Below are positions 10,908 through 58,019 of a DNA stretch of 64,000 nt, one piece after another; position 1 is the first letter of the stretch; each line of letters starts with the position of its first letter. The notes under the pieces are model-generated. The model was given only the letters and a program-made list of their open reading frames with translations. It was not told the origin of the DNA and did not search any database. This stretch comes from Arthrobacter sp. MN05-02 (GTDB lineage: Bacteria > Actinomycetota > Actinomycetes > Actinomycetales > Micrococcaceae), in the NCBI GenBank assembly GCA_004001285.1, contig AP018697.1, positions 62,001-126,000 on the forward strand, in the 5' to 3' direction. The position numbers were made by a program, and so were the translations under genes.

Positions 10908-12099
10908 GTGACCACGCCAGCGCACCAGCGCCCGCTCAAGATCGTCCTCGCCCCCGATTCCCTCAAGGGCAGCCTTCCCGCAGCGGAGGCTGCCTTCGCC
11001 ATGTCCGCGGGGGTCCGCGCGGCGGCGTCCCGGCTCGGCCATCCCGTACCCCACGTGGTCCTGGCCCCGCTCGCCGACGGCGGTGAAGGGACACTGGACG
11101 CGCTCCTCACCGCCTGGTCCGCCGAGGCGCGGACCGCCGCCTGCCACGACGCGGCCGGCCGCGCGCGCACGGCGCGCTACGGTATCTCGACGACCGGAGG
11201 TCACGGGAACACCGGTGCGGGGCGTCCTGGAGGCTGCGGAGGCCAACGGCCTGCCCCTCGTCGCCGACCTCCCCCTCGATGCGCTCACGGCCACCAGCTT
11301 CGGCGTCGGTGAGATCGCGGCACAGCTGCTCGACGACGGCGCGGAGGAGATCCTGCTCTGCATCGGCGGTTCCGCGACGACGGACGGCGGGACGGGCCTG
11401 CTCTCCGCCCTCGGTGCCCGTTTCCTCGACGCCGACGGCGATCCCCTGCCGCCGGGCGGAGGAGCACTCGCGGCCCTGGCGACCATCGACACCACCCACC
11501 TCCACCCGCGCTCCCGCGACGTCCGCTGGCGCATCGCGGTCGACGTCGACAACCCCCTGTGCGGGCCCCGCGGCGCCGCGGCCGTCTTCGGACCGCAGAA
11601 GGGCGCGACGCCGGACGACGTCACCGTCCTCGATCTCGGCCTGGCGCACCTCGCCGCCGTCGTGGGCGCGGTGTCCGGCATCGACATGCTCGAGGTCCCC
11701 GGGCCGGGGGCGGCCGGGGGCCTGCCCGCCGTGCTCGTCCCGTTGCTGGGAGCGGAGATCGTCCCCGGGTCCGCCCTGGTGGCCGACGCCGTCGGACTGG
11801 CCGGCGCGCTCGCGGACGCCGATCTCGTCCTGACGGGTGAGGGGTCCTTCGACTCGCAGTCGCTGGGCGGCAAGGTGGTGCAGGCCGTGGTGGAGAACGC
11901 CCCGGCGACCTGCGCCGTCGTCGCCGTCGCCGGGCGCGTGCAGCTCACGGCCGCGCAGGTGCAGGGCGCCGGGCTGGCGGGCGCGTTCTCGATCGCCACC
12001 GGTCCCATGGTGCTCGACGAGCTGATCCGGGACGCCGGGATGCTGATGGAGGATGCGGCCGCGCAGGTGTACGGCGTCTTCGCGGCCGGCCGGGGCTAG
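10908..12099 (+). pseudogene. glycerate kinase, one frameshift
   Basis: Together the two frames encode a complete glycerate 2-kinase (about 395 residues) that phosphorylates D-glycerate. Frame one runs from GTG 10908 with IVLAPDSLKGSL and LADGGEGTLDA; frame two resumes at GVLEAAEANGLPLV and contains CIGGSATTDGGTGLLSALG, FGPQKGAT and LTGEGSFDSQSLGGK. The break is at the G-run 11219-11222: with three Gs instead of four the text reads GNTGAGVLEAAEANGL without interruption. One extra base in a homopolymer is therefore the whole defect. The stop shares CTAG with the stop of the convergent acyl-CoA ligase. Could be a sequencing error. Confidence 0.85.
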
Positions 12100-13619
12100 A
12101 CCCTGATCTCGCGCTTGAGGATCTTGCCGGTGGGTCCCTTCGGCAGGGCGTCCACCAGCACTACGCGGCGCGGGTACTTGTAGGCCGCGATCCGGTCCTT
12201 CGCGAAGTCGACGATCTCGGCCGCGAGTGCCTCGCGGGCACCGTCGTCGGCCGGGGTGTGTTCGGCCTTGATGCCGACGACCGCCACGATCTCCTCGCCG
12301 TGCAGGTCGTCCGGCACGCCGATGACGGCGGCCTCGGCCACGGCGGGGTGCTCGTACAGGACCTCCTCCACCTCGCGGGGGTAGATGTTGTAGCCGCCGC
12401 GGAGGATCACGTCCTTCTTGCGGTCCACGATGAAGATGAGGCCGTCCTCGTCGAAGCGGGCGAGGTCGCCGGTGCGGAACCAGCCGTCGGGGATGGCCGC
12501 CGCCGTGGCGTCCGCGTTCTCCCAGTACCCCTTCATGACGCAGTGGCCGCGCACGGCGAGCTCGCCGACCTCGCCCTGCGCCACCTCGTCGCCCAGGGCG
12601 TCGAGCATCCGCACCTCGACGCCGTCCACCGGGGTGCCGATGGATCCGGGCTTGCGCAGGTGCCCCACCCGGTTGAAGCTGACGATCGGTGAGGTCTCCG
12701 ACAGCCCGTAGCCCTCCAGCAGGTCCGCGCCGAAGACCCGCTCGAATTCGTGCAGGACCTCCACGGGCAGCGCCGATCCACCGGAGACGGCCACGCGGAC
12801 GGAGGACAGGTCCGTGCCGGCGACGTCCGGGTGGCGCAGCATCGCGATGTACATGGTGGGGACGCCCTCGAAGATGGTGACGCGGTCGCGAGCGATGATC
12901 TCCAGTGCCTTCCCGGGCTCGAAGCGCGGCAGGAGTGTGACCGTGGCTCCGGTGAGGACGGCCGCGTTGAGCGCGCAGGTCTGCCCGAAGATATGGAAGA
13001 ACGGCAGGCCGCCGAAGAGCACCTCGCCCTCGGCGGTGCCCATGAGGTCGCGGGAGATCTCGGTGTTACGGGAGAGGTTGGCGTGGGAGAGGGTGGCGCC
13101 CTTGGGGCGGCCGGTGGTGCCCGAGGTGTAGAGGACCACGGCGGTCTCCTCGCCGTCGAGGTCGACGACGCCGGGGGTGGGCTCGGCGGCCGAGACGCGG
13201 TGCATGAAGGCGGAGTTGTCCACGGGGATCACGCTCACGGGATCGCCGGTCTCGGCGCCGGAGGCCTCGGCGCCGGCCTGCGCCTCGGCGAGGATGCCCT
13301 CCCAGGCGAAGACGAGCCTCGCGCCCGAGTTCGTCAGGTGGTAGGCGACCTCGCGGCCCCTGAGCAGCGGATTGAGGGGCACGACGACGGCGCCCGCCCG
13401 CAGGACCCCGTAATAGACGAATGCCATCTGGGGGATATTCGGCATGACGAGCGCCACGCGGTCCCCCCGCTGCACGCCCTGTTCGGTGAGGATCGTCGCG
13501 ACCTTCTGGCTGAGTGCCTCGAGCACCCCGAAGGTGACCTCGACGTCGTCGAGCTTGATGGCCACGGCCGAGGGGCTCCTCGTCGCGGTGGCCACGAGGT
13601 TGTCGGCGAGGTTCGGCAC
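12096..13619 (-). CDS. long-chain fatty acid-CoA ligase (AMP-forming)
   Basis: A 507-residue member of the ANL adenylating enzymes. The P-loop is LYTSGTTGRPKGATLSH, the adenine motif is GYGLSETSP, the hinge follows in GWFRTGDLARFDEDGLIFIVDRKKD and the C-terminal catalytic Lys is in GPTGKILKREI. It activates a carboxylic acid with ATP and joins it to CoA; FadD-like long-chain acids are the likely substrates but chain length cannot be read off. GTG 13619 is preferred: AAAGGAG lies a few bases upstream, and family similarity begins at PNLADNLVATA. An upstream in-frame extension to 13712 is not conserved. Confidence 0.88.
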   Translation of the reverse strand: MPNLADNLVATATRSPSAVAIKLDDVEVTFGVLEALSQKVATILTEQGVQRGDRVALVMPNIPQMAFVYYGVLRAGAVVVPLNPLLRGREVAYHLTNSGARLVFAWEGILAEAQAGAEASGAETGDPVSVIPVDNSAFMHRVSAAEPTPGVVDLDGEETAVVLYTSGTTGRPKGATLSHANLSRNTEISRDLMGTAEGEVLFGGLPFFHIFGQTCALNAAVLTGATVTLLPRFEPGKALEIIARDRVTIFEGVPTMYIAMLRHPDVAGTDLSSVRVAVSGGSALPVEVLHEFERVFGADLLEGYGLSETSPIVSFNRVGHLRKPGSIGTPVDGVEVRMLDALGDEVAQGEVGELAVRGHCVMKGYWENADATAAAIPDGWFRTGDLARFDEDGLIFIVDRKKDVILRGGYNIYPREVEEVLYEHPAVAEAAVIGVPDDLHGEEIVAVVGIKAEHTPADDGAREALAAEIVDFAKDRIAAYKYPRRVVLVDALPKGPTGKILKREIRV

Positions 13620-13714
13620 GCGATCTCCTTTGATCTCCAGCACGCTGCTGCAACGGACGGTACGGAAGTTACCGGTCGGTAGAAGTCTGTGCGATGGGCG
13701 CCGCGCACGCAACA

Positions 13715-13743
13715 GGACCCGCCCGGAGCTGCCGGGCGGGTCC
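13715..13743 (-). terminator. hairpin terminator after the POT transporter gene
   Basis: A perfect 12-bp stem (13715-13726 with 13732-13743) with a 5-base loop, 45 bases beyond the transporter stop. It separates that unit from the acyl-CoA ligase on the same strand. Confidence 0.7.
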
Positions 13744-13787
13744 CGTCGGTTCCTGAGGCCGCATCGGCCCCGGGCGGTGCGGGGGAC

Positions 13788-15251
<1,464 letters not shown>

Positions 15252-16696
15252 TCACTCCATGGTGCCACCGGGCGCAGGGGGAGTAAATTCACGATCCTCC
15301 TGGCGCAGGGCCTCGATCTGGGCGGTCACGGCGAGCAGCTGGGCCTCCTCGCCGGGGCGTCCGATGAGCTGCACACTCATCGACAGGCCGTCAGGCAGGC
15401 GCAGTGTGGGGACGGTCACGGCGGGCAGGCCGCAGACGTTCACCATCGACGTGAAGGGCGAGTACCGGCACTGCCGGAGGTAGTCGGTGTCGCCGTCGGC
15501 ATCGGTGTACCAGCCGAGGGGCCGCGGTGTCATGGCGACGGCGGGGGGTCAGGATCATGTCGAAGCCGGAGTACTGCCCGATGGTGTCCTGCTCGAACTG
15601 CCGCAGGACGTCGACGGCGGCCGCGAGGTCCGCGGCACTGCGGCCCAGGGCGCGGCGGCGCAGCACGCGCGTGATGTCCGTCAGCCGGTCCTCGCGCCCG
15701 TCGGGGATCGGCGCGGTGGCGAGGCCGGCCGTCCAGACGAGCTGGAACGCGTCGTGGTAGCGGCGGTCGTAGGTGAGGTCCGCGTCGACGACGTCGTGCC
15801 CGGCCTGCTGCAGCCGGCGGATCCCGGCGGCGAAGGCATCGGTGGCGGCGCTGTCCAGGCCGATGTCCATCGCGCCGGAGAAGGGGGAGGCCGTGCTGAC
15901 GCCGATACGGAAGCGGCCCTCGGCCCGCAGCGCGGCGTCGGTGAAGGTCCCGGGATAGCGGGACGCCGCACTCGTGGGTGGGCCGGTAGTTCGGCTCCCG
16001 CACGAGGGCATCGAGCATCAGCCCGGCGTCCACGGCCGAGCGGGCGAGCGGGCCGGCGACGACGAACTGGCCGAGGTCCGCCTGTCCCGAGCCCGACGGC
16101 ACGCGGCCGCGGTTCGGTTTGAGGCCCACCAGCCCGGTCGCCGCCGCAGGGATGCGGATGGAGCCCCCGCCGTCGGTGCCGGGCGCGAACGGGATCATCC
16201 CGGCGGCCACCGCGGCGGCGCTGCCGCCCGACGAGCCGGCCGGGCTGAGGCGACGGTCCAGGGGGTTGCGGGCCGGCGGGGCGATCCGGTTCTCGCTGTA
16301 GCAGCTCAGCCCGAACTCGGGGACCTGGGTCTTGCCTAGGCTGATGGCCCCGGCCCGGCGCAGCACCGACGCCAGTGGCGCGTCCTTCTCGGCGACGGCG
16401 TGGTCGAGGGCCGCCGTGCCCAGGGTGGTCCTCACTCCGGCGACGTCGGTGAGGTCCTTGTGTGCCAGGGGCACGCCGTGGAGCGGGCCGAGGGCCACCC
16501 CGGACGCACGCAGCCGGTCGGCATGGTCGGCGGCCCGCAGGGCGTCGTCGTGGGTCACGGTGAGGAAGGAACCGAGGTCGGGGTTGAGGGTGTCGATGCG
16601 CCGGAGGAAGTGCTCGGTGACCTCGCGGGCGCTGACGGCGCCGCGCGCCAGCGCGTCCCGGAGGGTGAGTGCGGAGAGTTCGTGGAGTTCGCTCAT
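15252..16696 (-). pseudogene. amidase-signature enzyme, two frameshifts
   Basis: Three frames together give a full amidase (about 480 residues). The first has the catalytic Lys in PLAHKDLTDVAG and the signature GSSGGSAAAVAAGMIPFAPG with the Ser-cisSer pair, ending in REPNYRP. The second resumes at TSAASRYPGTFTDAALRAEG, the third at AMTPRPLGWYTD. Break 1 is a duplicated TGGG (15975-15982, plus strand); break 2 is a run of six Gs (15543-15548) where five restore ILTPAVAMTPRPLG. It would hydrolyse an amide to acid and ammonia. Coupled to the peptide transporter, it suggests uptake and breakdown of a peptide or amide; both genes are broken. Confidence 0.82.
15975..15982. repeat. 4-bp tandem duplication in the amidase gene
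   Basis: TGGG is present twice in tandem. Removing one copy restores the amidase frame exactly, so this is the likely lesion. Confidence 0.75.
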
Positions 16697-16843
16697 GGGT
16701 TCCCAATCAAAGGCGGGCGGTTCCGGGTCCCGCCGCGCCATGGGCCCGGGAAGAAACGGCAAGGACAACTATAGGAGCCGTCACCCCGCCCGGTGCGGTC
16801 GTAGCAATGGCGGCACCCCACCGGCCCGTGCGAAGGTAGGCGC

Positions 16844-17170
16844 ATGAGCGAACCCCAGAACGTACCGGTGACAGCCGTGCCCGACGACGCGCGGATCCTC
16901 GACGTGCGCGAGGACTACGAGTGGGAGGCGGGCCACGTCGACGGCGCACTGCACATCCCGCTCGACCAGCTTCCCGCCCGGCTCGGCGAACTGGACCCGG
17001 ACGAGGACCTGCACGTCATCTGCCGCAGTGGTGGCCGATCGCAGCGTGCCGCCCAGTGGCTCGAGGGCAACGGCTACACGGCGGTCAACGTCAGCGGTGG
17101 CATGGGTGCCTGGCTCGAGGCCGGCAAGCCCATGGTGTCCGAGACTGGCAGCGAGCCGACCGTCCTGTGA
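16844..17170 (+). CDS. rhodanese-like domain protein
   Basis: A single-domain rhodanese of 108 residues. ILDVREDYEWEAGHVDGALHIPL is the split entry motif (CH2A-type) and ICRSGGRSQRAA holds the active-site Cys with a six-residue loop, as in sulfurtransferases. It would carry persulfide sulfur or serve thiosulfate/thiol sulfur transfer in the cytoplasm. Its TGA overlaps the GTG of pheA by four bases, so both are translated from one message; there is no obvious metabolic link. Confidence 0.9.
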   Translation: MSEPQNVPVTAVPDDARILDVREDYEWEAGHVDGALHIPLDQLPARLGELDPDEDLHVICRSGGRSQRAAQWLEGNGYTAVNVSGGMGAWLEAGKPMVSETGSEPTVL

Positions 17171-18099: not shown

Positions 18100-18178
18100 C
18101 GGGGGCGCAGCGGAGGGACCAAAAGCACAGTAGGCTTACTATCGAAGGTCCTCCTCCCACCGAAGGCTGGTTCCCACG

Positions 18179-19153: not shown

Positions 19154-19239
19154 CCGGCGCATTTCCAACCATCCCGCCGGTCAGTACGCTGGCAGCGGGC
19201 GCCCAACGAGGAGCGCATCCTTCGACGAAAGGAAGCATC

Positions 19240-19587: not shown

Positions 19588-19599
19588 GACGGACCGCCC

Positions 19600-20745: not shown

Positions 20746-20753
20746 GGTCATCC

Positions 20754-20759
20754 AGAATA
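20754..20759 (-). promoter_or_regulatory. -10 hexamer of a leaderless start (lipid kinase)
   Basis: On the minus strand TATTCT stands eight bases before the ATG at 20745 and only two before the ATG at 20751; it therefore favours the inner start. Confidence 0.4.
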
Positions 20760-20800
20760 GCCGCACGGCCACCGCGGGCGGCCGTGCCGCCGGGTTTGGG

Positions 20801-20806
20801 TAGTCT
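20801..20806 (+). promoter_or_regulatory. -10 hexamer of a leaderless start (serS)
   Basis: TAGTCT stands exactly six bases before the GTG of serS and no Shine-Dalgarno sequence is present. Confidence 0.5.
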
Positions 20807-34533: not shown

Positions 34534-36227
34534 CGGCCCCGCCCGGCTCCTCCGGCGACCTCCCCGCGGCTCCCGCCCCGGACGGTCCGGAGGCCACCGC
34601 TCCGGCTGCCGACACCTGGCATCGGGTCCACTTCATCTCCCCGCTGGTGCGCGGCTGGATCGCGCTCGTCGCCATCCTCTACTTCGTGGGCAGGGACTGG
34701 TTCGAGGGCCTGTTCAGCGGCGGCCCACGGGAGCGGGGTCCCCTGCCCGAGGGCATCGGCCTGCTGGTGGCCGGGGGGATCGTGCTCGGCGTCGTGGTGG
34801 TGATCGCGGCCGCCTTCCTCGTCTCGTGGTACTTCACGCGCTACCAGGTGACGGCCGAGCACGTGCGCGTCCACTCCGGCGTCGTGTTCCGGCAGCAGCG
34901 GCAGGCACGCCTCGACCGGGTGCAGGCCATCGACATCGTGCAGCCCTTCCTCGCCAGGATCTTCGGGCTCGCGGAGCTCAAGTTCGAGGTGGCCGATGCA
35001 GGGGAGTCCGCGGTCCGGCTCGCGTTCCTGAAGCTGGCCGACGCCCGCAGGCTGCGCGCGACGATCCTCGCCCGCGCGGCAGGCGTGGACCCGGACCCGG
35101 AGCACCCGGAGGAGTCCGTCGAGGCGCCCGAGCGTGAGGTGGTCGCCATCCCGCCCGCGCGCGTCGTCGGAGCAGCCGTCCTCTCGGGGACCACCGTGGC
35201 GCTGGTCGTGGCCGCCGCCGTCGTCACCACGCTCGGAGTGGTCCTGGAGACGCCGATCATCGCGACGTCCTTCATCCCCATCCTCATCGGCGTCGTCGGC
35301 GCCTACTGGTCGGCCCTCAACACGGGCTACAACTTCCGCGCAGCGACGTCCCCGGACGGCATCCGAATGCGCTACGGACTGCTGGACACGCGCTCGCAGA
35401 CGGTACCGCCGGGACGCGTGCAGGCCCTGAGCATCCTGCAGTCACCGCTGTGGCGGTTGAAGGGCTGGTACCGCGTCACCGTGAACGTCGCGGGCTACGG
35501 GGCGTCGGTCTCGAGCGAGGGACAGGCACGTGCGACGCTCCTCCCCGTCGGCACCCGCGACGAGGTGCTGCAGATCCTCGCCCTCGTGCTGCCCGATCCC
35601 GGGACGCCGCGTCCGGTCGAGGTGTTCACCGCGGGCATGGCAGGCCGGGACGGCGACGAGGGCTTCGTCACCACCCCGCGCCGGGCCCGGTGGCTGGCAC
35701 CCCTCGCCTGGCGGCGCAACGGCTTCGTCGGAACGCGGACGGCACTGCTCATGCGCTCCGGCGTGCTGTGGCGCCAGCTCGTCGTCGTGCCGCACGAGCG
35801 GACCCAGTCGCTCTCGATCGAGCAGGGCCCCGTGGACCGGCGCTTCCGCGTCTCGAACCTGCAGTTCCAGACGACGCCCGGCCCGGTCAGTCCGCGGGTC
35901 CTCCTCGCGGACTCGGCCACGGCCTGGGAGCTCTTCCACGGTCAGGCCGCCCGCGCTGCCGAGGCCCGGCGCCGCAGCGGCCCCGAGCAGTGGATGAAGC
36001 CCGTCCCCGGCGCGCCCCCCGCGGCAGCCACCGGGGACACCGGGGACACCGGGGACACCGGGGACGCGGGGGACGCGGAGGACGCCGGGCAGACCCGGCC
36101 CGGCGACGCCGGGACGCCGCAGGACGCTGCGCGGCCGGCTCCCGGCGTCCGGGACGTGATGCCCGAGGTGCCGCTCTACGCGCCCGCGACCGACGGGACG
36201 GAGGAGCCCGCCGATGGCCGGCGCTGA
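34530..36227 (+). CDS. triple PH-domain membrane protein (YdbT-like)
   Basis: A 565-residue membrane protein, partner of the preceding gene. Two helices (about 50-65 and 70-95) precede a bPH2 domain starting near residue 100 (YFTRYQVTAEHVRVHSG); a second helix pair (about 210-260) precedes another domain near 266 (YNFRAATSPDGIRMRYG); a third domain begins near 397 (NGFVGTRTALLMRSG). Each has the family R-x-Q/T-x-L/I-x-I strand (DRVQAIDI, GRVQALSI, ERTQSLSI). The tail from residue 500 is low complexity and includes the tandem TGD repeat. The GTG overlaps the upstream stop. Function unknown; a surface or membrane-stress role is a guess. Confidence 0.82.
   Translation: MTAPPGSSGDLPAAPAPDGPEATAPAADTWHRVHFISPLVRGWIALVAILYFVGRDWFEGLFSGGPRERGPLPEGIGLLVAGGIVLGVVVVIAAAFLVSWYFTRYQVTAEHVRVHSGVVFRQQRQARLDRVQAIDIVQPFLARIFGLAELKFEVADAGESAVRLAFLKLADARRLRATILARAAGVDPDPEHPEESVEAPEREVVAIPPARVVGAAVLSGTTVALVVAAAVVTTLGVVLETPIIATSFIPILIGVVGAYWSALNTGYNFRAATSPDGIRMRYGLLDTRSQTVPPGRVQALSILQSPLWRLKGWYRVTVNVAGYGASVSSEGQARATLLPVGTRDEVLQILALVLPDPGTPRPVEVFTAGMAGRDGDEGFVTTPRRARWLAPLAWRRNGFVGTRTALLMRSGVLWRQLVVVPHERTQSLSIEQGPVDRRFRVSNLQFQTTPGPVSPRVLLADSATAWELFHGQAARAAEARRRSGPEQWMKPVPGAPPAAATGDTGDTGDTGDAGDAEDAGQTRPGDAGTPQDAARPAPGVRDVMPEVPLYAPATDGTEEPADGRR
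36030..36065. repeat. 9-bp minisatellite, four perfect units
   Basis: ACCGGGGAC is repeated four times without error, then decays into GCGGGGGAC and GCGGAGGAC units up to about 36083. In frame it encodes TGD-TGD-TGD-TGD-AGD-AED in the disordered tail of the PH-domain protein. Length is a multiple of three, so unit gain or loss would not shift the frame. Confidence 0.9.
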
Positions 36228-38207: not shown

Positions 38208-39719
38208 GTGACCCACGACGACATCCTCCCCGCGGAAGACCTCAACGAGCAGATGCGCTTCCGGCTGCAGAAGCGGGCGGCCCTGCTCGACGCCGGCACC
38301 GAGGCCTACCCGGTCAAGCCGGAGCGGACGCACTCGCTCGGCGAGGTGCGGGTGCGGGAGCAGTTCGGCGACCTCCCCACGGGAGAGTCGAGCGGCCGGC
38401 AGGTCGCCGTCGTCGGACGCGTCGTCTTCCTCCGCAACTCGGGCAAGCTGTGCTTCGCGACGCTTCAGGAGGGGGACGGCACCCGGCTCCAGGTCATGCT
38501 GAGCCTCGCGGAGATCGGCCCGGACCGCCTCGCCGACTGGAAGGCGCTCGTCGACCTCGGCGACCATGTCCAGGTGCACGGCGAGGTCATCAGTTCACGG
38601 CGCGGCGAACTCTCCGTGATGGCGGACTCCTGGGCCATGGCATCGAAGGCGCTCCGCCCGCTGCCCACGCTGCACGCGGGCGTCAACGAGGAGACGCGCG
38701 TCCGGCAGCGCTACGTGGACCTGATGGTCCGCGAGGAGGCCCGGCAGATGGTCCGCACCCGCGCCGCGATCACGCGGACCCTCCGCGAGACGCTCAACCG
38801 CCATGACTACATCGAGGTCGAGACGCCCATCCTCCAGCTCGTCCACGGCGGAGCGACGGCCCGGCCGTTCGAGACCCACCTCAACGCCTTCGACCAGAAG
38901 ATGACGCTCCGCATCGCCCTGGAGCTGTACCTGAAACGTGCCGTCGTCGGCGGGATCGACCGCGTCTACGAGATCGGCCGGATCTTCCGCAACGAGGGCG
39001 TCGACTCCACGCACAGCCCCGAGTTCACGATGCTCGAGTGCTACGAGGCCTACGCCGACCAGTTCGTGATGGCGGACCGCATGAAGGAGATGATCCTCGC
39101 CTGTGCCGATCTGCTGGGATCGCGCACCATCGAGACCGCGAAGGGCACGATCGACCTCGACGGCGAGTGGGCGTGGCTCGGCGTCTATCCCGGTCTCTCT
39201 CCTCCGCGGTGGGCCAGGAGGTCACGCCGGACACCGGCCTCGAGGAGCTGCGGTCGATCGCGGAACGCCACGAGGTCTCGCTGGATCCGGCCTGGGGCGC
39301 GGAGAAGGTGGTGCTCGAGCTCTTCTCCGAGATCGTGGAGCCGACGCTCATCCAGCCGACCTTCGTCTACGACTACCCACCGTCGGCGCAGCCGCTCGCC
39401 CGGACCCACCGCGAGGACCCGCGGCTGATCGAGGCATGGGACCTCATCATCGGGGGGATGGAACGCGGCACGGCCTTCTCCGAACTCATCGACCCGGTGA
39501 TCCAGCGTGAGCGCCTCACCGAGCAGTCGCGACAGGCCGCGGCCGGAGACGACGAGGCCATGCAGCTGGACGAGGACTTCCTGCGGGCCCTCGAATACGG
39601 GGCCCCGCCGATGGGCGGTATCGGTCTCGGAATCGATCGGCTCGTGATGCTTTTTCACGAACGTCGGAATTCGCGAGTCCATCCTCTTCCCGATTCTCAA
39701 GCCCGAGGCGGGGCAGTAG
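38208..39719 (+). pseudogene. lysS: lysyl-tRNA synthetase, two frameshifts
   Basis: The three frame segments together give a complete class II LysRS (about 502 residues) that charges tRNA-Lys. Segment 1 has the OB-fold tRNA-binding domain and motif 2 in YEIGRIFRNEGVDSTHSPEF; it breaks after LGVYPGLS. Segment 2 resumes at SAVGQEVTPDTGLEELR and holds motif 3, PPMGGIGLGIDRLVMLF. Segment 3 is the last 20 residues to GQ-stop. Break 1 is one extra TC in TCTCTCTC (39194-39201); break 2 is one extra T in TTTTT (39651-39655). The sum is +3. Start at GTG 38208 (TTG 38199 possible). Loss of this gene should be lethal without a second copy, so error must be considered. Confidence 0.88.
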
Positions 39720-43135: not shown

Positions 43136-45168
43136 ATGACCACCCCTTTCTCATCGCTCGATGACTTCGTCGCCCTGCCGCGCCTCAGCGGCCTCGTCCT
43201 CGACCGGACGGGCACGCGCCTCGTGACGTCCGTCGCGACCCTCGACTCCAAGAAGACCGCCTATCGGACCGCACTGTGGGAGGTCGACCCTGCGGGCGAG
43301 CAGCCCGCGCGGCGCCTCACGCAGGGCGCGGCAGGGGAGTCGGGCGCCGTGTTCCTCGCCAGCGGCGACCTGCTCTTCACCTCGGCACGCCCCGACCCGG
43401 AGGACGCGGACGGCGAGAAGCGTGCCGCGCTGTGGCGTCTTCCGGCCGTGGGCGGTGAGGCGTCCCTGCTCCTGACCCGCGACGGCGGTGTCGCAGGCGT
43501 GGCCACGGCCGACGCGGCCGACGTCGTGGTCGTCACCGCGAACGCGCTGGCCGGTTCCGCGAACGAGGAGGACGACGCCGAGCGCCGCAAGGTGCGCAAG
43601 GAGGCAGGAGTCGCTGCCATCCTGCACGACGGCTACCCGGTGCGCTACTGGGACGCCGACCTCGGGCCGGACGAGCCGCGGTACTTCGGCCTGCAGGGAC
43701 TCGACGACGACGGCGGGCGGGCGCTCGAGGACCTCGCCCCCCTCCGTGCGCGGAGGCCTGCGGGACGCCCACCCCGTGCTCAGCCCCGACGGATCGACGC
43801 TCTTCACGGCCCTCACCGTGCCCGAGGAACGCGGCTCCCAGCGCACGGTGCTCGCCCGTGTGGACCTGGCCACGCGGGAACTCACCGTCCTGCTGGACGA
43901 CCGCGACAGCGACTACTCGCCCGGTCCCGTCAGCCCCGACGGCCGCCACCTCGCCGTCGTGAAGGACCGGCGCACCACGGTGGAGCTCGCGCCCGCCACC
44001 AGCCTGCTGCTGCTCCCCCTCGAGGGCGGGGAGCCGACGCCGCTGGCCGGCGACTGGGATCGCTGGCCGTCCCCTGCCGCGTGGCTGCCCGACGGCTCGG
44101 CCCTCGTCGTGACGGCCGACGACGACGGCGCGGCGCCGGTCTTCGTGATCGACGTCGCCACGGGGGTGGTGCGGCGGGTGACGGAGGATGCGGCGGCATA
44201 CTCCGACGTGCAGGTTTCCCCGGACGGGGCCACCGCCTACGCGCTGCGCAGCTCGTACCTGTTCCCGGCGGAGGCGGTGCGGATCGACCTCGCCTCCGGC
44301 GCCACCGAGCGCCTGCGCAATCCGGCGGAGCGCCCCGCACTGCCCGGCACGCTCGAGCGCATCGAATCCGTGGGGGAGGACGGACAGCCGGTGAAGTCGT
44401 GGCTCGTGCTCCGTGCTCCCCGAGGGCGCCTCCGAGGAGTCGCCCGCGCCCGCACTGCTGTGGATCCACGGCGGGCCGATCGGTTCGTGGAATGCGTGGA
44501 CATGGCGCTGGTCGCCGTGGATCATGGCTGCACGCGGGTACGCGGTCCTCCTGCCGGACCCGGCGCTGTCCACGGGGTACGGGCAGCACATGGTGGACCG
44601 CGGCTGGGGGCGGTGGGGCGGCGCACCGTATACCGACCTCATGGCGGCGACGGACGACCTGGTGGCGCGGAAGGACATCGACGAGACCCGCGTGGCGGCG
44701 ATGGGCGGCAGTTTCGGCGGCTACATGGCGAACTGGGTCGCCGGGCACACGGACCGCTTCGCAGCCATCGTGACCCACGCGAGCCTGTGGTCGCTGGACC
44801 AGTTCGGCCCCACCACGGATGCCGCCTTCTACTGGGAGCGGGAGATGACCCCCGAGGCCAGGGAGGAGAACTCGCCGCACCACCACGTGGGGGAGATCCG
44901 TACCCCCATGCTCGTCATCCACGGCGACAAGGACTACCGGGTGCCGATCGGCGAGGGCCTGCGGCTCTGGTACGAGCTGCTGTCGAAGTCGCAGCTGCCG
45001 GCCGATGCCGAGGGCCGGACGCCCCACCGCTTCCTCTACTTCCCGGACGAGAACCACTGGATCCTCAAGCCCCAGCATGCCCGGATCTGGTACGGGGTCG
45101 TCGAGGCCTTCCTGGCGTCGCACGTCCTCGGTGAGGAGCGGGAGCTGCCCGCCGAGCTGGGCCTGTAG
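43136..45168 (+). pseudogene. S9-family prolyl oligopeptidase, two frameshifts
   Basis: The three frames give a cytoplasmic S9C acylaminoacyl-peptidase-like enzyme of about 675 residues. The N-terminal beta-propeller spans segment 1 (MTTPFSSLDDFVALPRL) and segment 2, which resumes at SVRGGLRDAHPVLSPDGST. The alpha/beta-hydrolase domain is in segment 3: WIHGGPIGSWNAW, the nucleophile in AAMGGSFGGYMANW, the Asp in IHGDKDYRVP and the His in PDENHWIL. Break 1 is six Cs at 43737-43742 where five restore EDLAPSVRGGL; break 2 is a 7-bp tandem duplication at 44406-44419. Apart from these the protein looks functional. Confidence 0.85.
44406..44419. repeat. 7-bp tandem duplication in the S9 peptidase gene
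   Basis: GTGCTCC is present twice without a gap. Deleting one copy gives SWLVLPEGASEESPAP in a single frame, so this duplication is the lesion. Confidence 0.8.
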
Positions 45169-45192
45169 GGGTGCGGGCGGGGCGGCGCTTTG

Positions 45193-45198
45193 TAGAGT
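45193..45198 (+). promoter_or_regulatory. -10 hexamer of a leaderless start (argA)
   Basis: TAGAGT stands seven bases before the ATG at 45206; no ribosome-binding site is present. Confidence 0.5.
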
Positions 45199-45205
45199 GG
45201 GTCGA

Positions 45206-45715
45206 ATGACCTTCCCCTTCACCATCCGCCCCGCCCGCACCTCCGACGTCCCGGCCATCAAGTCGCTGGTCGAACCCCTCGCCGAGGAGCGCATCCTGAT
45301 GGCCAAGGAGACGGTGGCGTACTACGAGGGCCTGCCCGAGTTCCGCATCGCGGAGTCCGACGGCGGTGAGGTGCTCGGCTGCGGGGCGCTGCACATCATG
45401 TGGGAGGACCTCGCGGAGGTCCGCACGCTGGCGACCTCGCCTGCCGCCCGCGGCCGCGGCGTCGGGCACGCGCTGGTCGAGGGACTGCTCGAGGAGGCGC
45501 GTGCCTTCGGGGTGAGCCGGGTGTTCTGCCTGACCTTCGAGGTGGAGTTCTTCCGGCGCCACGGTTTCGAGGTCATGGCCGACCAGTCCGCCGTCGATCC
45601 GCAGATCTACTCGGAACTCCTGCGGTCCCATGACGAGGGCGTCGCGGAGTTCCTCGACCTGGCGCGGGTGAAGCCGAACACGCTCGGCAATACCCGCATG
45701 ATCAGGCAGCTCTGA
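45206..45715 (+). CDS. argA: amino-acid N-acetyltransferase (short ArgA type)
   Basis: A 169-residue GNAT protein that closely follows the single-domain N-acetylglutamate synthase of actinobacteria (Mycobacterium Rv2747): ARTSDVPAIKSLV, LGCGALHIMWEDLAEVRTLA, the acetyl-CoA loop ARGRGVGHALVEGLL, RVFCLTFEVEFFRRHGFEV and the ending VKPNTLGNTRM. It lacks the amino-acid-kinase domain of classical ArgA. It makes N-acetylglutamate for arginine synthesis. The ATG at 45206 is favoured by family length and by the -10 hexamer seven bases upstream; a longer frame reads through the peptidase gene. Confidence 0.87.
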   Translation: MTFPFTIRPARTSDVPAIKSLVEPLAEERILMAKETVAYYEGLPEFRIAESDGGEVLGCGALHIMWEDLAEVRTLATSPAARGRGVGHALVEGLLEEARAFGVSRVFCLTFEVEFFRRHGFEVMADQSAVDPQIYSELLRSHDEGVAEFLDLARVKPNTLGNTRMIRQL

Positions 45716-48631: not shown

Positions 48632-48659
48632 TCCGTCGGGCGTCCTCCGCCGTCCCGCA

Positions 48660-48691
48660 GCCTCCTGGCCGGGCGGCCTCCTAGCCGGGCA
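48660..48691. repeat. degenerate 16-bp tandem duplication at the mutY end
   Basis: Units 48660-48675 and 48676-48691 (GCCTCCTGGCCGGGCG and GCCTCCTAGCCGGGCA) differ at two positions. The second contains the mutY stop codon (TAG on the minus strand at 48681-48683); the first carries the corresponding CCA and lies beyond the gene. Confidence 0.65.
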
Positions 48692-49700: not shown

Positions 49701-49775
49701 GGGATGCTCCTGGGTCATTGTCGTGAATACTCTAGCCACCGGCGTGGTGCCGGGAAGAATGCGAGCGGCCGTCCC

Positions 49776-49781
49776 TAGCCT
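49776..49781 (+). promoter_or_regulatory. -10 hexamer of a leaderless start
   Basis: TAGCCT stands six bases before the ATG at 49788; there is no Shine-Dalgarno sequence. Confidence 0.5.
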
Positions 49782-49787
49782 TGATGG

Positions 49788-50549: not shown

Positions 50550-50615
50550 GTCCTCCGCGGCGCTGCGGGCAGACCCGAGTCCTGCGCACCGTCCAACCGC
50601 ACCCGGCATCGGCCG

Positions 50616-51692: not shown

Positions 51693-51908
51693 GGGCCTAT
51701 CCTTTCACCGCCCGCGCTGTTGAAGGCCCGGCGCAGTCGGGCGGCTGCCGTCGAGCCTCGGACGGCAGTCAACGGCCGCGGGTCTAGCCGCGCAGCCGAT
51801 CATAATACTACTGGCGCGCGGGAAATCCTCCGTACCGGCCGTCGTCGCAGATGGGTAACACTCCGCCGGGCCGTCCCGTCCGGCTCGCAGCGGCCCGGGC
51901 CTCGCTGC

Positions 51909-53294
51909 CTAGAACAGGAGGGCCAGGGCCTCGGCGAGTGTCGATACCTCCCGCACGGAGAAGCCCTTCGGTACGGGTCCCGTCCCGCCGGGCGACGCCG
52001 GGACGATCGCGTGCGTGAAACCGAGCCGCTCCGCCTCCTGGATGCGTCGGCCGATGCCGGGCACCGGGCGCACCTCCCCGGCCAGTCCCACCTCGCCGAA
52101 CGCGATGAGCCGGGCGGGCAGGGGGTGGTCGGTCTTCGCGGATGCGATGGCCAGGGCGACGGCGAGGTCCGTCGCGGGCTCGGTCAGGCGGACGCCGCCG
52201 ACCGTCGCGACGTAGCTGTCGTCCTTGGAGAGGCTGACCGATGCGCGACTCTGCAGCACGGCCAGCAGCATGGCGACACGCGAGCTGTCCAGGCCGCTCG
52301 TCGCCCGCCGCGGCTGGGAGTTGGCCGACTCCGCCAGCAGCGCCTGGACCTCCGCCAGCAGGGGGCGCCTGCCCTCGAGGGTGACGGTGATGCATGTCCC
52401 GGACACCGGGTCCTTGGTCCGCGACACGAAGAGCCCGCTGGGGTCGGCGAGGCCCTCGATCCCGCCGTCCGTCAGGTCGAAGCAACCCACTTCGTCCGTG
52501 GGGCCGTACCGGTTCTTGACCGCGCGCAGGAGGCGCAGCCGGGAGTGACGCTCGCCTTCGAACTGGCAGACGACGTCCACGAGGTGTTCGAGCAGCCTCG
52601 GACCGGCGATGGAGCCGTCCTTGGTCACGTGCCCGACGAGCAGTGTGGTCATCCCCCGAGCCTTCGCGGCCCCGATGAGTGATGCAGCGACCTCCCGGAC
52701 CTGGGTGACGCCCCCGGCGCTCCCGTCCACCGCCGCACTGCTGAGCGTCTGGACGGAGTCGACGATCAGCAGCGCGGGATCGAGCGTCTCCACCTGGCCG
52801 AGGGCCTGGCCGAGATCGGTCTCCGCGCTGAGGTAGAGGGAATCGGCGACGGCGTCGATACGGTCGGCGCGGAGCTTCACCTGGGCTGCGGACTCCTCGC
52901 CCGTGACGTAGAGGACGTCCTTGCCGAGCCGTGCCACGCGCGCCGCGACGTCGAGCAGCAGGGTGGACTTCCCGACGCCGGGTTCCCCGGCGAGCAGGAT
53001 CACGGCGCCGGGCACCAGCCCGCCGCCGAGCACACGATCCAGCTCGTCGATCTTCGTCGGCTGGAATCCGGACAGGGTGGCGTCGACCTCGGCGATGCGC
53101 CGCGCCGGCGTCGTCACGGCCGTGGCCGCGGTGGTGCGGGCTGCCACCTGGCCGGTCTCCTCCACGGTCCCCCAGGCCTGGCACTCACCACACCGGCCCA
53201 CCCACTTCGCCGTCGTCCAGCCACACTCCGCGCAGCGGTAGTTGGGTGCGTTGCTGCGGCTCGCGCGGGTGGCAGGGGAGGTCTTCGTGGCCAT
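51909..53294 (-). CDS. radA: DNA repair protein RadA
   Basis: A 461-residue RecA-like branch-migration helicase for recombination intermediates. The N-terminal C4 zinc finger is CAECGWTTAKWVGRCGEC. The ATPase has Walker A in AGEPGVGKSTLLL near residue 105 and Walker B LLIVDSVQTL. The RadA-specific motif is present as KNRYGPTDEVG, with Tyr in place of the commoner Phe of KNRFG. The C-terminal Lon-like domain follows (DLAVALAIASAK, AFGEVGLAGEVRPV). Start ATG 53294 is six bases after TAGCCT. In other bacteria RadA binds DisA and dampens its cyclase, consistent with the neighbouring gene. Confidence 0.94.
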   Translation of the reverse strand: MATKTSPATRASRSNAPNYRCAECGWTTAKWVGRCGECQAWGTVEETGQVAARTTAATAVTTPARRIAEVDATLSGFQPTKIDELDRVLGGGLVPGAVILLAGEPGVGKSTLLLDVAARVARLGKDVLYVTGEESAAQVKLRADRIDAVADSLYLSAETDLGQALGQVETLDPALLIVDSVQTLSSAAVDGSAGGVTQVREVAASLIGAAKARGMTTLLVGHVTKDGSIAGPRLLEHLVDVVCQFEGERHSRLRLLRAVKNRYGPTDEVGCFDLTDGGIEGLADPSGLFVSRTKDPVSGTCITVTLEGRRPLLAEVQALLAESANSQPRRATSGLDSSRVAMLLAVLQSRASVSLSKDDSYVATVGGVRLTEPATDLAVALAIASAKTDHPLPARLIAFGEVGLAGEVRPVPGIGRRIQEAERLGFTHAIVPASPGGTGPVPKGFSVREVSTLAEALALLF

Positions 53295-53300
53295 TGCTTC

Positions 53301-53306
53301 AGGCTA
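53301..53306 (-). promoter_or_regulatory. -10 hexamer of a leaderless start (radA)
   Basis: On the minus strand TAGCCT stands six bases before the radA ATG, without a ribosome site. Confidence 0.5.
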
Positions 53307-53357
53307 CCTGCGGGCACCGACAGAGCCGGCCCTGCGCCGGCCTTCCGACCGTGCCCG

Positions 53358-54485
53358 TCAGAGCCGGGGCAGGTAGTCGGCCGCGTCCTCGTGCGAGAGT
53401 CCTGTCGCCTCGAGCAGATCCACGACGAGCGGGCGGAGGAGGAGTACGAGGCCCTCGCCCTCGAGGCGGCTGATGCCGAGCGTCTCGGGGTGGAGGTCGG
53501 TGGCGACGGCCGCCAGGTCGTTGCGTGCCTGCCGCAGGTTGAGGCGGCGCTCGGCGGAGTCCCGGGCGGACAGGGCGCGGGACAGCACGTCGACGGCGTC
53601 CGCCGTGTCCTCCAGTGATTGGCCGAGGGCTTCGATGGCCTCGTCGGTCAGCGCGGCATGATTGATGGCGGAGGTCAGTCGGCGGGAGAAGACACGGCTG
53701 TTGCGGATGGCGAGGTCGATCGATTCCACGGCGCTCCGCAGGGACCCGAGCTCATCGCGGTGCCGCCGGTAGGCGGGGGAGATGCGGGCGACCTCCTGCG
53801 CCGCCTTCATGCTGCCGGTCAGGCTGTCGAGCTGCGCCTGGCAGCTCCGGGCCCGGACCAGCGCATGCCAGGCCAGGGTCGAATCGCTCGTGCGGAGTGC
53901 GGCGGCACTGTCGCGGAGCACCCCGGACAGTTCACCCAGGAGGCCGCGGACGTTCGTCTTCGGCTCGCGGCGGGGATCACGTGGCAGCAGCATGGTGATC
54001 GCCAGCGCGAAGAGACCACCCACGATCGCGTCGACGCTGCGGGTGAACGGTCCGCCCTGCGGCGCCGGCAGCAGCACCACGAGCAGGGACTGCAGGCCGA
54101 GCTGGGTGGTGAAGATGGTGCCGCTGTCCAGGAAGCGGGCCAGCAGGATCGAGATGAACAGGACGACGGCGGCCTGCCAGAGGCCGGTGCCGAAGAGGGT
54201 GAGCAGGAGGTCGCCCACCGAGATGCCGAGCGTGCAGCCGATCGCCACCTCGAGCACCCGGCGGACGCGGGGATCACGCGAGAAACCCAGGGAGATCATC
54301 GACGATGTCGCGGCGAACAGCGGACCGTTGTGCCCGAGGACCTCTTCCGCGAAGGCGTAGGCCCCGACCGCGCACACTGTCATCTGCACGGCGGCCACCA
54401 CCGAGCCGGAACTGCGCTTGAGTCCCGTGCGGGAGCGCTTGCGCAGGAAGCCGAGGGCGGCGGAGACTCCCTGGCGCGGCGGCAT
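53358..54485 (-). CDS. FUSC/aromatic-acid-exporter-like membrane protein
   Basis: A 375-residue protein. The first 165 residues contain about five or six membrane helices (VVAAVQMTVCAVGAYAFAEE, LEVAIGCTLGISVGDLLLTL, VVLFISILLARFLDSGT, LLVVLLPAPQGG, IVGGLFALAITMLLPRDP), then a long cytoplasmic helical domain of about 200 residues. This is the pattern of the FUSC/ArAE_1 (DUF939) family of putative exporters. The substrate is unknown. The ATG is six bases after TAGACT on the minus strand. It is divergent from pstS but shows no PHO box of its own. Confidence 0.78.
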   Translation of the reverse strand: MPPRQGVSAALGFLRKRSRTGLKRSSGSVVAAVQMTVCAVGAYAFAEEVLGHNGPLFAATSSMISLGFSRDPRVRRVLEVAIGCTLGISVGDLLLTLFGTGLWQAAVVLFISILLARFLDSGTIFTTQLGLQSLLVVLLPAPQGGPFTRSVDAIVGGLFALAITMLLPRDPRREPKTNVRGLLGELSGVLRDSAAALRTSDSTLAWHALVRARSCQAQLDSLTGSMKAAQEVARISPAYRRHRDELGSLRSAVESIDLAIRNSRVFSRRLTSAINHAALTDEAIEALGQSLEDTADAVDVLSRALSARDSAERRLNLRQARNDLAAVATDLHPETLGISRLEGEGLVLLLRPLVVDLLEATGLSHEDAADYLPRL

Positions 54486-54491
54486 GGCTCC

Positions 54492-54497
54492 AGTCTA
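54492..54497 (-). promoter_or_regulatory. -10 hexamer of a leaderless start (FUSC gene)
   Basis: TAGACT (minus strand) stands six bases before the ATG at 54485, without a Shine-Dalgarno sequence in the leader. Confidence 0.5.
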
Positions 54498-54571
54498 GGA
54501 GGTGCTGCGGAGGGAGGCTCTCGTCTCCTGCTCCGGTCCCGGACCGCCCTGCGGGGCAATGGACCCGCGCT

Positions 54572-54593
54572 GTTCACTTTCCGTTCATGTCGC
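54572..54593 (+). promoter_or_regulatory. PHO box upstream of pstS
   Basis: Two adjoining 11-base direct repeats, GTTCACTTTCC and GTTCATGTCGC, fit the actinobacterial PhoP box. A weaker third GGTCA unit at 54596 lies slightly out of phase. TAGCTT at 54621-54626 is a candidate -10, which puts the boxes just upstream of the -35 position, as for PhoP-activated promoters. PhoR-PhoP control of pstS under phosphate limitation is therefore expected. Confidence 0.75.
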
Positions 54594-54630
54594 CCGGTCA
54601 GTCTCTTTACCTGCACTGCCTAGCTTCGAG

Positions 54631-54652
54631 GATGTACAAGAACGCGTACATC
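54631..54652 (+). other. inverted repeat in the pstS leader
   Basis: GATGTAC (54631-54637) pairs with GTACATC (54646-54652) around an 8-base loop. It falls at or right after the predicted transcript start and about 57 bases before the pstS GTG. It could be a 5-prime stabilising hairpin or an operator. Confidence 0.4.
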
Positions 54653-54708
54653 TCTACCGAGTGCCATTCGTGCACCGATGAACACATCCCTGGAAGGGGC
54701 AAGAAAAC

Positions 54709-55830
54709 GTGAAGGCTCTTCGCTTTGGCCGCGCTGCGGCAGTTATCTCGGTAGCTGCGCTGGCGCTCACCGCCTGTGGTTCCGACAACGCCACCGGCGA
54801 GCCGGCAGCAGCCGCCGGGGAATCGTCCTCGGCCGCAGGCACGGCCGTGACCGGCACCCTCACCGGGATCGGCGCCTCGTCGCAGAACTCCGCGATGGAA
54901 GCCTGGAAGACCGGCTTCGAATCCGCCAACGAGGGTGCCATGGTGCAGTACTCGCCGGACGGATCCGGCGCGGGCCGCAAGGCGTTCCTGAGCGGCGGCG
55001 CGCAGTTCGCCGGCTCGGACGCCTACCTGAAGGACGAGGAGATGACCGAGGCCGTCGAGGTCTGCGGACCGGACGGTGCGCTGAACATCCCCGCGTACAT
55101 CTCCCCGATCGCGATCGCCTTCAACCTCGGGGACGTCACCGACCTGAACCTCGACGCCCCCACCATCGCGAAGATCTTCAAGAAGGAGATCACCACCTGG
55201 AACGATCCCGCGATCGCCTCCCAGAACGAGGGCGTCGAACTGCCCGACACCCCGATCACCGTGGTGCACCGCTCGGACGAGTCCGGCACCACCGAGAACT
55301 TCGTCGACTACCTCGCCGCTGCGGCTCCGGCCGACTGGACCTACGAGGTGGAGGGCGCCTGGCCTGCCGACCTGCAGTCCGAGAACGCCAAGGGCACTTC
55401 GGGCGTCGTCCAGACGGTCACCTCGACCGATGGCGCCATCACCTACGCCGACGCCTCCGCCGTCGGGGACCTCGGCACGGCCAAGGTCAAGGTCGGCGAG
55501 GAGTACACCGAGATCAGCTCCGACGCCGCGGCCAAGGCCGTCGAGGTCGCGGTACCCGTCGAAGGCCGCTCCGAGCTGGACATGTCGCTCCAGCTCGAGC
55601 GGGACACCACCGAGTCCGGCGCCTACCCCGTCGTCCTCGTCAGCTACCACGTCTACTGCACGTCCTACGACAGCCAGGAGACCGTCGACCTCGTGAAGGC
55701 CTTCGGTTCCTACGTCATCAGCGAGGACGGCCAGGCGGAGGCCGAGGCTTCCGCCGGCAACGCCCCGCTGTCGGAGTCGCTGCGCGAGAAGGCGCAGACG
55801 GCCATCGACTCCATCAAGGTCGCCTCCTGA
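54709..55830 (+). CDS. pstS: phosphate ABC transporter, substrate-binding lipoprotein PstS
   Basis: A 373-residue lipoprotein that binds phosphate outside the membrane. The signal peptide ends in the lipobox LTAC (residues 20-23, lipidated C23). The phosphate-site motifs are GIGASSQNSAMEAW, DGSGAGRKAFLSGGAQFAGSD (loop split over two strands), VVHRSDESGTTENF and KGTSGVVQTV. The linker after C23 is Ala/Ser-rich. GTG 54709 has GGAAGGGG at 54692-54699. First gene of pstSCAB. Confidence 0.95.
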   Translation: MKALRFGRAAAVISVAALALTACGSDNATGEPAAAAGESSSAAGTAVTGTLTGIGASSQNSAMEAWKTGFESANEGAMVQYSPDGSGAGRKAFLSGGAQFAGSDAYLKDEEMTEAVEVCGPDGALNIPAYISPIAIAFNLGDVTDLNLDAPTIAKIFKKEITTWNDPAIASQNEGVELPDTPITVVHRSDESGTTENFVDYLAAAAPADWTYEVEGAWPADLQSENAKGTSGVVQTVTSTDGAITYADASAVGDLGTAKVKVGEEYTEISSDAAAKAVEVAVPVEGRSELDMSLQLERDTTESGAYPVVLVSYHVYCTSYDSQETVDLVKAFGSYVISEDGQAEAEASAGNAPLSESLREKAQTAIDSIKVAS

Positions 55831-55975
55831 TCAAGGCTCCCGGGTCCCGTCTGGTCTAATGGAGACCGGACGGGACCGTCCGCCGTTCACGGCTGGAATC
55901 AGCAGGAACCTTCCACCTCGGTCCGGCAACCGGGCCGTTCCTGCACCTGAAATCGACCGCCTGGAAGGCAAAGAC

Positions 55976-56908
55976 GTGTCAACCAACTCGCTGAAAGCGT
56001 CGACGGATCGAGGTCGCGCAGGCGACAAGATCTTCTCCGGCATCTCCCTCACCGCCGGCGTCCTGATCCTGGCAGTGCTCTTCAGCGTCGCAGTGTTCCT
56101 GCTCGTGCAGGCCGCACCGACCTTCACCGCCGACCCCGCCGAGGTCACCGGCGGCAACGGCTTCGCCGCCTACATCCTGCCGATCGTCATCGGGACCATC
56201 GTGGCGGCGGCGATCGCCCTGCTGATCGCGACGCCCGTGGGCATCGCCGTCGCCCTCTTCATCTCGCATTACGCCCCGCGCAGGCTTGCACGGGCCTTCG
56301 GGTACGTCGTCGACCTGCTCGCGGCCATCCCGTCGGTGATCTACGGCGCTTGGGGCTACATCGTCCTCGCGCCGCAGCTCGCCAGGGTCTACACCTGGCT
56401 CGCCGAGAACCTCGGCTGGATCCCGATCTTCGCGGGACCAGCCAGCCAGACGGGCAAGACCATGCTGACGGCCGGGATCGTGCTGGCGGTCATGGTCATC
56501 CCGATCATCACCTCGCTCAGCCGGGAGATCTTCCTCCAGACCCCCAACCTCCACGAGGAGGCCGCGCTCGCGATGGGAGCCACGCGCTGGGAGATGGTCC
56601 GCATGGCCGTCCTGCCCTTCGCCCGGCCGGGGATCATCAGCGCCACGATGCTCGGTCTCGGCCGCGCGCTCGGGGAGACGATGGCCGTGGCCCTGGTCCT
56701 CTCACCCGGTGCGCTCGTGGCGAGCCTCGTGAAGTCGGGCAACCAGACCATCGCCGCCGAGATCGCCCTGAACTTCCCCGAGGCCTTCGGGCTCCGGCTC
56801 AACGAACTGATCGCCGCGGGCCTCGTGCTCTTCGTCATCACGCTGATCGTCAACATGATCGCCCGGTTCATCATCACCCGGCACAAAGAATTCTCGGGAG
56901 CTAACTGA
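55976..56908 (+). CDS. pstC: phosphate ABC transporter permease PstC
   Basis: A 310-residue inner membrane subunit with six predicted helices. The coupling-helix EAA motif is HEEAALAMGATRWEMVRMAVLP, split by the conserved Gly; AIPSVIYGAWGYIVLAPQL and GLGRALGETMAVALVL are PstC markers. GTG 55976 is chosen because GGAAGG (55963-55968) lies seven bases upstream and the product begins STNSLKAS; an earlier in-frame ATG at 55859 belongs to spacer. It ends one base before pstA. Confidence 0.92.
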   Translation: MSTNSLKASTDRGRAGDKIFSGISLTAGVLILAVLFSVAVFLLVQAAPTFTADPAEVTGGNGFAAYILPIVIGTIVAAAIALLIATPVGIAVALFISHYAPRRLARAFGYVVDLLAAIPSVIYGAWGYIVLAPQLARVYTWLAENLGWIPIFAGPASQTGKTMLTAGIVLAVMVIPIITSLSREIFLQTPNLHEEAALAMGATRWEMVRMAVLPFARPGIISATMLGLGRALGETMAVALVLSPGALVASLVKSGNQTIAAEIALNFPEAFGLRLNELIAAGLVLFVITLIVNMIARFIITRHKEFSGAN

Positions 56909-56909
56909 T

Positions 56910-58019
56910 ATGGCAGCGAACCAGACGCTTCAGCGTCGCCAGTCCCAGCTCACGCGCGGGCACCTGCCCTCGTACGCCGTGTGGGTCGTCCTGGCGGCCT
57001 CGGTGGTCCTCGGCGCCGCACTGGCCTCCCTGATCGGCTTCAGCGTGGTCGGCTGGGCGATCATCTCGGCGATCGTCTTCGTCCTCGCGGCCACCCCTCG
57101 TCACCGCCGTCGCGGAGGGCGAGCGCAAGGCCAAGGACCGGTTCGTCACCTTCCTCGTGTACGGCGCCTTTTTGGTCGCGCTTCTCCCGCTGATCTCGGT
57201 GATCTGGACGGTGCTCGAACGGGGCGTGCCGGGGCTCAGCTACAACTTCCTCTTCACGTCGATGAACGGCGTGACCGGCGCCGTGGACAACGACGCCGTG
57301 GAGGGTGGGACGCCCGTGCTGGGCGGTGCCTACCACGCAGTGCTCGGCACGCTCCAAATCACGCTCTGGGCCACGCTGATCTCGGTGCCGATCGGCCTGC
57401 TCACCGCCGTGTACCTCGTGGAATACGGCTCCGGGAAGACCCTCACCAAGGCCATCACCTTCTTCGTGGACGTCATGACCGGCATCCCGTCGATCGTCGC
57501 GGGCCTCTTCGCCGCGGCCCTCTTCACCCTGCTGTTCGGACCCGGGACGCGGACGGGCTTCGTCGCCGCCGTCGCCCTGTCCGTCCTCATGATCCCCGTG
57601 GTGGTGCGCTCCACCGAGGAGATGCTCAAGATCGTGCCCAACGAGCTCCGCGAGGCGTCCTACGCCCTCGGCGTGCGGAAGTGGCGCACCATCACGAAGG
57701 TGGTCATCCCGACGGCGATCTCCGGTATCGCCTCCGGCGTAACCCTCTCGATCGCGCGCGCGTGATCGGCGAGACCGCACCTATCCTTGTAACGGCGGGC
57801 TTCGCGAGCTCCATCAACTGGAACGTCTTCAGCGGATGGATGAGCACCTTCCCCACCTTCATCTACTACCAGATCCTGACGCCGACCTCCCCGACCTCGC
57901 CGGATCCGAGTACCCAGCGAGCCTGGGCCGCCGCCCTCCTGCTGATCCTCATGGTGATGCTGCTGAACCTGGTCGCCCGCCTCGTCGCCCGCATCTTCGC
58001 CCCCAAGACCAGCCGCTGA
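56910..58019 (+). pseudogene. pstA: phosphate ABC transporter permease PstA, two frameshifts
   Basis: The three frame segments form a full PstA (about 369 residues, six helices after a short N-terminal pair). Segment 1 starts MAANQTLQRRQSQLTRGHLP; segment 2 includes GLSYNFLFTSMNGVTGAV, GIPSIVAGLFAAALF and the EAA loop REASYALGVRKWRTITKVV; segment 3 is VIGETAPILVTAGF to the end. Break 1 is CCCC at 57095-57098: with three Cs it reads LAATLVTAVAEGERK. Break 2 is (CG)5 at 57753-57762: with four units it reads LSIARVIGETAP. The net change is +3. The intact pst operon around it argues for a recent lesion or an error. Confidence 0.87.

Follow-up and report, generated by a model that had tools for sequence, protein, structure and literature searches.

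The stretch of the Arthrobacter sp. MN05-02 genome that we analysed (64,000 nt, bases 62001–126000 of contig 1; the genome totals 3,643,424 bp and comprises 2 contigs), here called the window, contains several genes that are split between reading frames. In the original prediction, made from the sequence alone, nine such breaks were each read as the gain of one unit of a short tandem repeat. The question raised by this locus is whether the extra units arose in the living cell or were written into the sequence during its assembly. We conclude that the breaks are almost certainly errors of some kind, and that the extra units are most likely consensus errors of the assembly, of a joining or consensus kind, rather than mutations in a living cell.

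Sequences compared

The window was aligned to the matching regions of same-genus genomes, designated below by G-codes, and of Arthrobacter sp. RIT-PI-e, which provided the one named locus with a similar protein. The closest relative is G009, which is 95% identical in the piece spanning the site at window position 15975. For a larger sample, 1.2 Mb of contig 1 (2688434–3488433 and 1–400000) was compared with stretches of G006; 617,183 bp of it aligned, of which 550,720 bp are G006 CDS (518 pieces). Counts from this sample depend on the one reference, G006, and on a simple ORF caller based on G+C by codon position, and some of the chosen CDS are too long. One CDS, which bears a -4 change at window 797, opens ahead of the real gene with a start that looks out of frame, and a -8 change at window 45717 lies just beyond the end of the ORF at 45005–45715; both rows are kept in the 1.2-Mb counts. 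Frame changes were excluded if a flank had fewer than 60 aligned bases, if identity was 78% or less, or if at least 25 bases lay between the flanks, and in one comparison these filters reduced 76 events to 44. The completeness of the MN05-02 assembly is 96.41%; of 34 genomes in the genus, 27 reach 99–100%.

Frame changes in the window

The sites are listed in Table 1. Eight of the nine predicted sites carry one additional tandem unit, of 1, 2, 4 or 7 bp, in comparison with every relative that could be aligned across them, and the mixture of unit lengths in the original prediction was correct. The ninth site, at 11219, had been misplaced. The G4 run at this position is kept in 3 of 4 aligned relatives, the exception being G020, and the local net change upstream of it is -2 relative to 3 of the 4 and -1 relative to G003. 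We observed that the second frame of this glycerate kinase gene resembles the relatives from TGTPVRG onward, that is, over a segment that begins upstream of the G4 run and includes it, which places the break in the interval given in Table 1. The change could be a -2, or a +1 accompanied by one codon fewer.

Table 1. Frame changes and associated in-frame change in the window, with window coordinates
Gene	Unit and change	Position	Strand	Support and remarks
Glycerate kinase	Frame change	about 11190..11204	+	Alignment, protein comparison, family match; originally placed at 11219
Amidase	G6, +1	15543..15548	-	5 of 5 relatives; family match
Amidase (same gene)	TGGG x2, +4	15975..15982	-	6 of 6 relatives, including the closest, G009
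lysS	GTGCGG x2, in-frame +6	38346..38357	+	Very high support; absent from the original prediction
lysS	TC x4, +2	39194..39201	+	4 of 4 relatives
lysS	T5, +1	39651..39655	+	4 of 4 relatives
S9-peptidase-like (presumed)	C6, +1	43737..43742	+	3 of 3 relatives
S9-peptidase-like (presumed)	GTGCTCC x2, +7	44406..44419	+	3 of 3 relatives
pstA	C4, +1	57094..57097	+	5 of 5 relatives; family match; originally given as 57095
pstA	CG x5, +2	57753..57762	+	5 of 5 relatives

The eight confirmed sites and the in-frame +6 of lysS fall in four genes. In lysS, the +2 and +1 changes sum to +3 and the frame is lost only between them; the +1 and +2 changes of pstA likewise sum to +3. NCBIfam families were assigned for glycerate kinase, amidase, lysyl-tRNA synthetase (LysRS) and PstA. 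The remaining gene we take to be S9-peptidase-like from the protein of a relative, and its broken window ORF, which was the only form scanned, gave no NCBIfam family match.

Two further features of the window may be recorded here. Positions 36029–36089 hold a tandem array of CACCGGGGA, in 6.8 copies. In G009, the sequences flanking the segment from 14251 to 15775 are separated by about 77 kb (3380433 and 3457563), so that one of the two genomes has been rearranged or misassembled here or has received an insertion.

Gains and losses within and beyond the window

It had been claimed that no deletion occurs among the breaks, and this proved too strong. Frame-breaking gains and losses in the window numbered 9 and 4 relative to G023, 6 and 0 relative to G020, and 7 and 1 relative to G003, respectively. 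The wider count against G006 gave 66 gains and 16 losses in the 1.2-Mb sample, so that losses exist but are unequal in number. The predicted direction thus holds in that most changes are gains; its uniformity was overstated, as losses are present both in the window and in the larger sample. The gains in CDS that are open in G006 (550,720 bp) comprise 44 of +1, 13 of +2, 4 of +4, 2 of +5, and one each of +7, +8 and +11.

As a background, G023, G020, G003, G029 and RIT-PI-e were compared with G006, and 5 gains and 5 losses were found in 239,178 bp, which scales to about 11.5 gains and about 11.5 losses per 550 kb; G009 was left out of this count because the pieces that it has in common with MN05-02 (about 10 kb and 7 kb) were too short. 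The gains in the window exceed this background. In the 1.2-Mb sample, losses in MN05-02 are therefore near the background rate, and the excess consists almost entirely of gains. The reverse count, that is, changes of G006 within MN05-02 ORFs of the 1.2-Mb sample, gave 17 gains and 43 losses, and is no independent control because many of these ORFs span MN05-02 gains. Some of the losses in MN05-02 lie near gains (3059727, at 538 bp; 3098888, at 534 and 116 bp; 3109268, at 855 bp), and three -1 losses, 67 and 305 bp apart, fall within a single gene (3260138–3260510). These observations suggest either that bases were occasionally dropped as well or that one reference, G006, is insufficient.

Nature of the extra units

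An exact tandem unit is the best explanation of 57 of the 65 gains shorter than 10 bp, and not of the other 8; the +11 gain was excluded from this test. Among the +1 gains, 31 of 39 fall in a run that was already at least 2 long, compared with 44.5% of random bases, and with the gained base included the runs measure 2 (8 cases), 3 (9), 4 (11), 5 (7) and 6 (4). No strand bias was seen in the base gained at the +1 sites, which on the coding strand is C in 19 cases, G in 16, A in 3 and T in 1. At window 46206, near the start of a gene that is presumably DhaK-like, there is a +1 relative to G006 that is not a tandem unit and may be a start-site difference.

Distribution of the breaks among genes

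A break is present in 46 of the 489 aligned genes, including pta and the gene for xylose isomerase. The broken genes are as conserved as the rest: median amino-acid identity is 0.886 for the 46 and 0.890 for the 443 without a break (P = 0.88). We also compared the location of frame-changing tandem gains in the two genomes. For MN05-02, 74 such gains fall in partner CDS and 33 outside, versus 21 and 27 for G006, where the aligned DNA behind the counts is 584,028 bp coding and only 28,922 bp non-coding. Nearly all of the MN05-02 excess is thus in genes and has not been purged from coding DNA, whereas ordinary genomes purge such indels from their genes. Recent pseudogenes would be expected to be limited to dispensable, less conserved genes; instead, lysS and pta are broken and a link to conservation is lacking. 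Independence of gene importance, as observed here, is what would be expected of assembly errors.

The break in lysS also bears on this. A search of the genome for a second lysS found none, and the gene in the window is the only LysRS gene found. When 32 genomes were searched for LysRS, the cut-off was passed by 29, and not by MN05-02, G009 and G038; among the 20 other same-genus genomes, 19 have LysRS above the cut-off, the exception being G009. In MN05-02, the search returned both fragments of the gene in the window together with distant class II matches, which correspond to one intact 603-aa frame that was taken as AspRS, and nothing above the cut-off for class I LysRS. Certain genomes within the order do have a second LysRS-like gene, as does, in partial form, G013 of the genus (G013:C193:20876-21688, on a separate contig of a genome listed at 4% contamination), and it is possible that MN05-02 has a second copy that was not assembled. 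With lysS split between two frames and no other LysRS gene found, it is hard to see how every break could be real; breaks that a living cell could not tolerate are to be expected of assembly errors. In G009 (89% complete, one contig), only part of lysS lies in one frame (G009:C1:172572-173426), and this genome is perhaps another flawed assembly.

Paired spacing of the gains

The positions of the gains relative to each other were informative. Successive distances between all tandem gains include 35 at 251–939 bp, 11 of them at 627–695 bp, none at 50–240 bp, and three below 50 bp (19, 21 and 48 bp); the absence of distances at 50–240 bp has P = 2.8e-4 under a flat density. Frame-breaking gains gave 15 successive distances shorter than 1000 bp, compared with a mean of 4.6 and a maximum of 12 in 2000 random placements. 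A tandem gain is present 240–960 bp away from 41 of the 57 frame-breaking gains, and 30–240 bp away from 1 of the 57, while 16 are partnerless. The gains of G006 itself included no pair at 250–950 bp. To judge detection, single units and pairs were planted in the sequence: 93 of 124 single units were detected, and both sites were detected for 21 of 36 pairs planted at 70–200 bp and 12 of 26 at 300–650 bp. Recovery of close pairs was thus no poorer than that of wider pairs, and the gap at 50–240 bp is no blind spot of detection.

The gain coordinates have no common period (for periods of 150–1200, phase coherence is 0.355 at best, compared with a random mean of 0.357), although a drifting period is possible. 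Errors at polishing-window boundaries, which would be expected to produce a common coordinate period, received no support from this comparison. Patches might be expected to differ inside in coverage, composition or accuracy; the interiors of 36 pairs showed no difference in G+C, and the mismatch rate near gains was not raised. With no signal in G+C, mismatches or period, we infer the existence of patches from the spacing alone.

Origin of the extra units

The arrangement could be accounted for if the assembly contained patches of about 250–950 bp, each a gap fill, a small contig or a locally rebuilt piece, that had been joined to their neighbours. At each join a few bases would be written twice, leaving a tandem unit of 1–8 bp, and the two seams of one patch would appear as a pair of gains. 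A join in which one piece was retained to its very end and the other was added from the point where the alignment stopped would give gains, chiefly at repeats. The units do tend to fall in homopolymers and short repeats, where an alignment at a seam would stop early; random seams alone, however, would not give the homopolymer preference of the +1 gains, and this is a point against seams. Further points against them are the pair interiors, which do not stand out, the 16 partnerless gains, the 8 gains not best explained by a tandem unit, the three distances below 50 bp and the losses. Doubling of 1–8 bases without regard to conservation, without added mismatches and at both ends of stretches of 250–950 bp fits the seams of patches. 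Moreover, seams would be expected to give pairs at patch-like distances and hardly any closer, which is the pattern that we found. We put the chance that seams are the exact mechanism at about even, and the joining step is one that we infer. For the broader reading, an artefact of read correction or assembly, which the original prediction had offered as the rival to slippage, the support comes from the gain excess, the mostly tandem units, the conservation-blind breaks, lysS, the pair spacing and the lowered completeness.

Assembly error could also have arisen without seams, as residual sequencing or base-calling indels left in poorly covered patches, and we consider this unlikely. The enrichment of +1 gains in homopolymers, the clustering of gains and the absence of a link to gene conservation agree with such an origin, and some raw long reads are insertion-rich. 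Residual errors, however, should also fall 50–240 bp apart, where we found 0 distances versus 35 at 240–960 bp, and should bring extra mismatches, of which none were seen. Tandem units of 4–8 bp are, to our knowledge, not a usual read error, and homopolymer error in long reads consists mostly of lost bases, which is not what the 66 gains and 16 losses show. The direction is also opposite to that of a long-read assembly described in the Kastor paper, with mostly false deletions (1708 deletions and 900 insertions; PMC12007338).

The original prediction offered slippage in vivo as a possible cause, given that Actinobacteria generally lack MutS/MutL; the broken genes would then be recent pseudogenes. 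Our observations do not support this, and we regard it as very unlikely. The search for repair genes went both ways. MutS was not found in MN05-02, as the suggestion presumed, and this favours slippage; NucS, however, is intact there as a 234-aa open frame and occurs in every one of the 33 genomes sampled from the genus, whereas a mismatch-repair mutator would be expected to have lost NucS, or MutS where MutS is native. Two published accounts could be cited in favour of slippage. M. smegmatis NucS leaves 1–2 bp indels unrepaired, its inactivity on small indels being the normal state (PMC11551767), and DinB2 produces -1 and +1 frameshifts in runs (PMC10159617); by the latter account, however, slippage should yield losses too. 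Also on this side are the in-frame stops caused by substitution, which number 11 in 20,672 codons of broken genes versus 54 in 157,135 codons of the others, as counts without a significance test. Against slippage, the gain excess is absent in G023, G020, G003, G029 and RIT-PI-e, which belong to the same genus or near it; genes are broken irrespective of their conservation; the only lysS found is broken, and the viability of the strain without another LysRS argues against a real break; and the minimum spacing of about 250 bp between gains is left unexplained.

The gains might alternatively be real and very recent, if staggered breaks, paired 250–950 bp apart, had been filled in and rejoined in non-growing cells so that short tandem duplications arose in a burst across the genome, but this is more doubtful still. 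Least credible is phase variation, with contingency loci that were in the off state in the colony sequenced, which would account for repeat-unit changes within coding DNA but not for repeats that are very short (C3, T4, or a single TGGG or GTGCTCC in relatives) or for affected genes that include lysS, pstA and pta.

Consensus errors at seams remain our preferred reading: most likely no biology underlies this pattern, and we regard it as an artefact of assembly whose signature is unusual. Should the errors go unflagged, about a tenth of the conserved genes in the sample (46/489), lysS among them, would enter the annotation as pseudogenes, and one might take the genome for that of a slippage mutator. 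The paired spacing provides a simple test for the same type of error in other assemblies.

Comparison with known systems

MN05-02 resembles simple-repeat phase variation in that frames are switched through changes in unit number, but its sites are without long repeats and housekeeping genes are broken. It resembles mutators without mismatch repair in the changes in tandem-unit length and in the failure to find MutS, and differs from them in its intact NucS, common to the genus, and in gains that are not purged from genes. It also resembles the indel errors that fragment genes in long-read and hybrid bacterial assemblies, with many frame breaks, enrichment in homopolymers and lower marker completeness. 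Yet, unlike the long-read profile of PMC12007338, in which false deletions predominate, MN05-02 has mostly gains, some of them in units of 4–8 bp, and these are paired at 251–939 bp.
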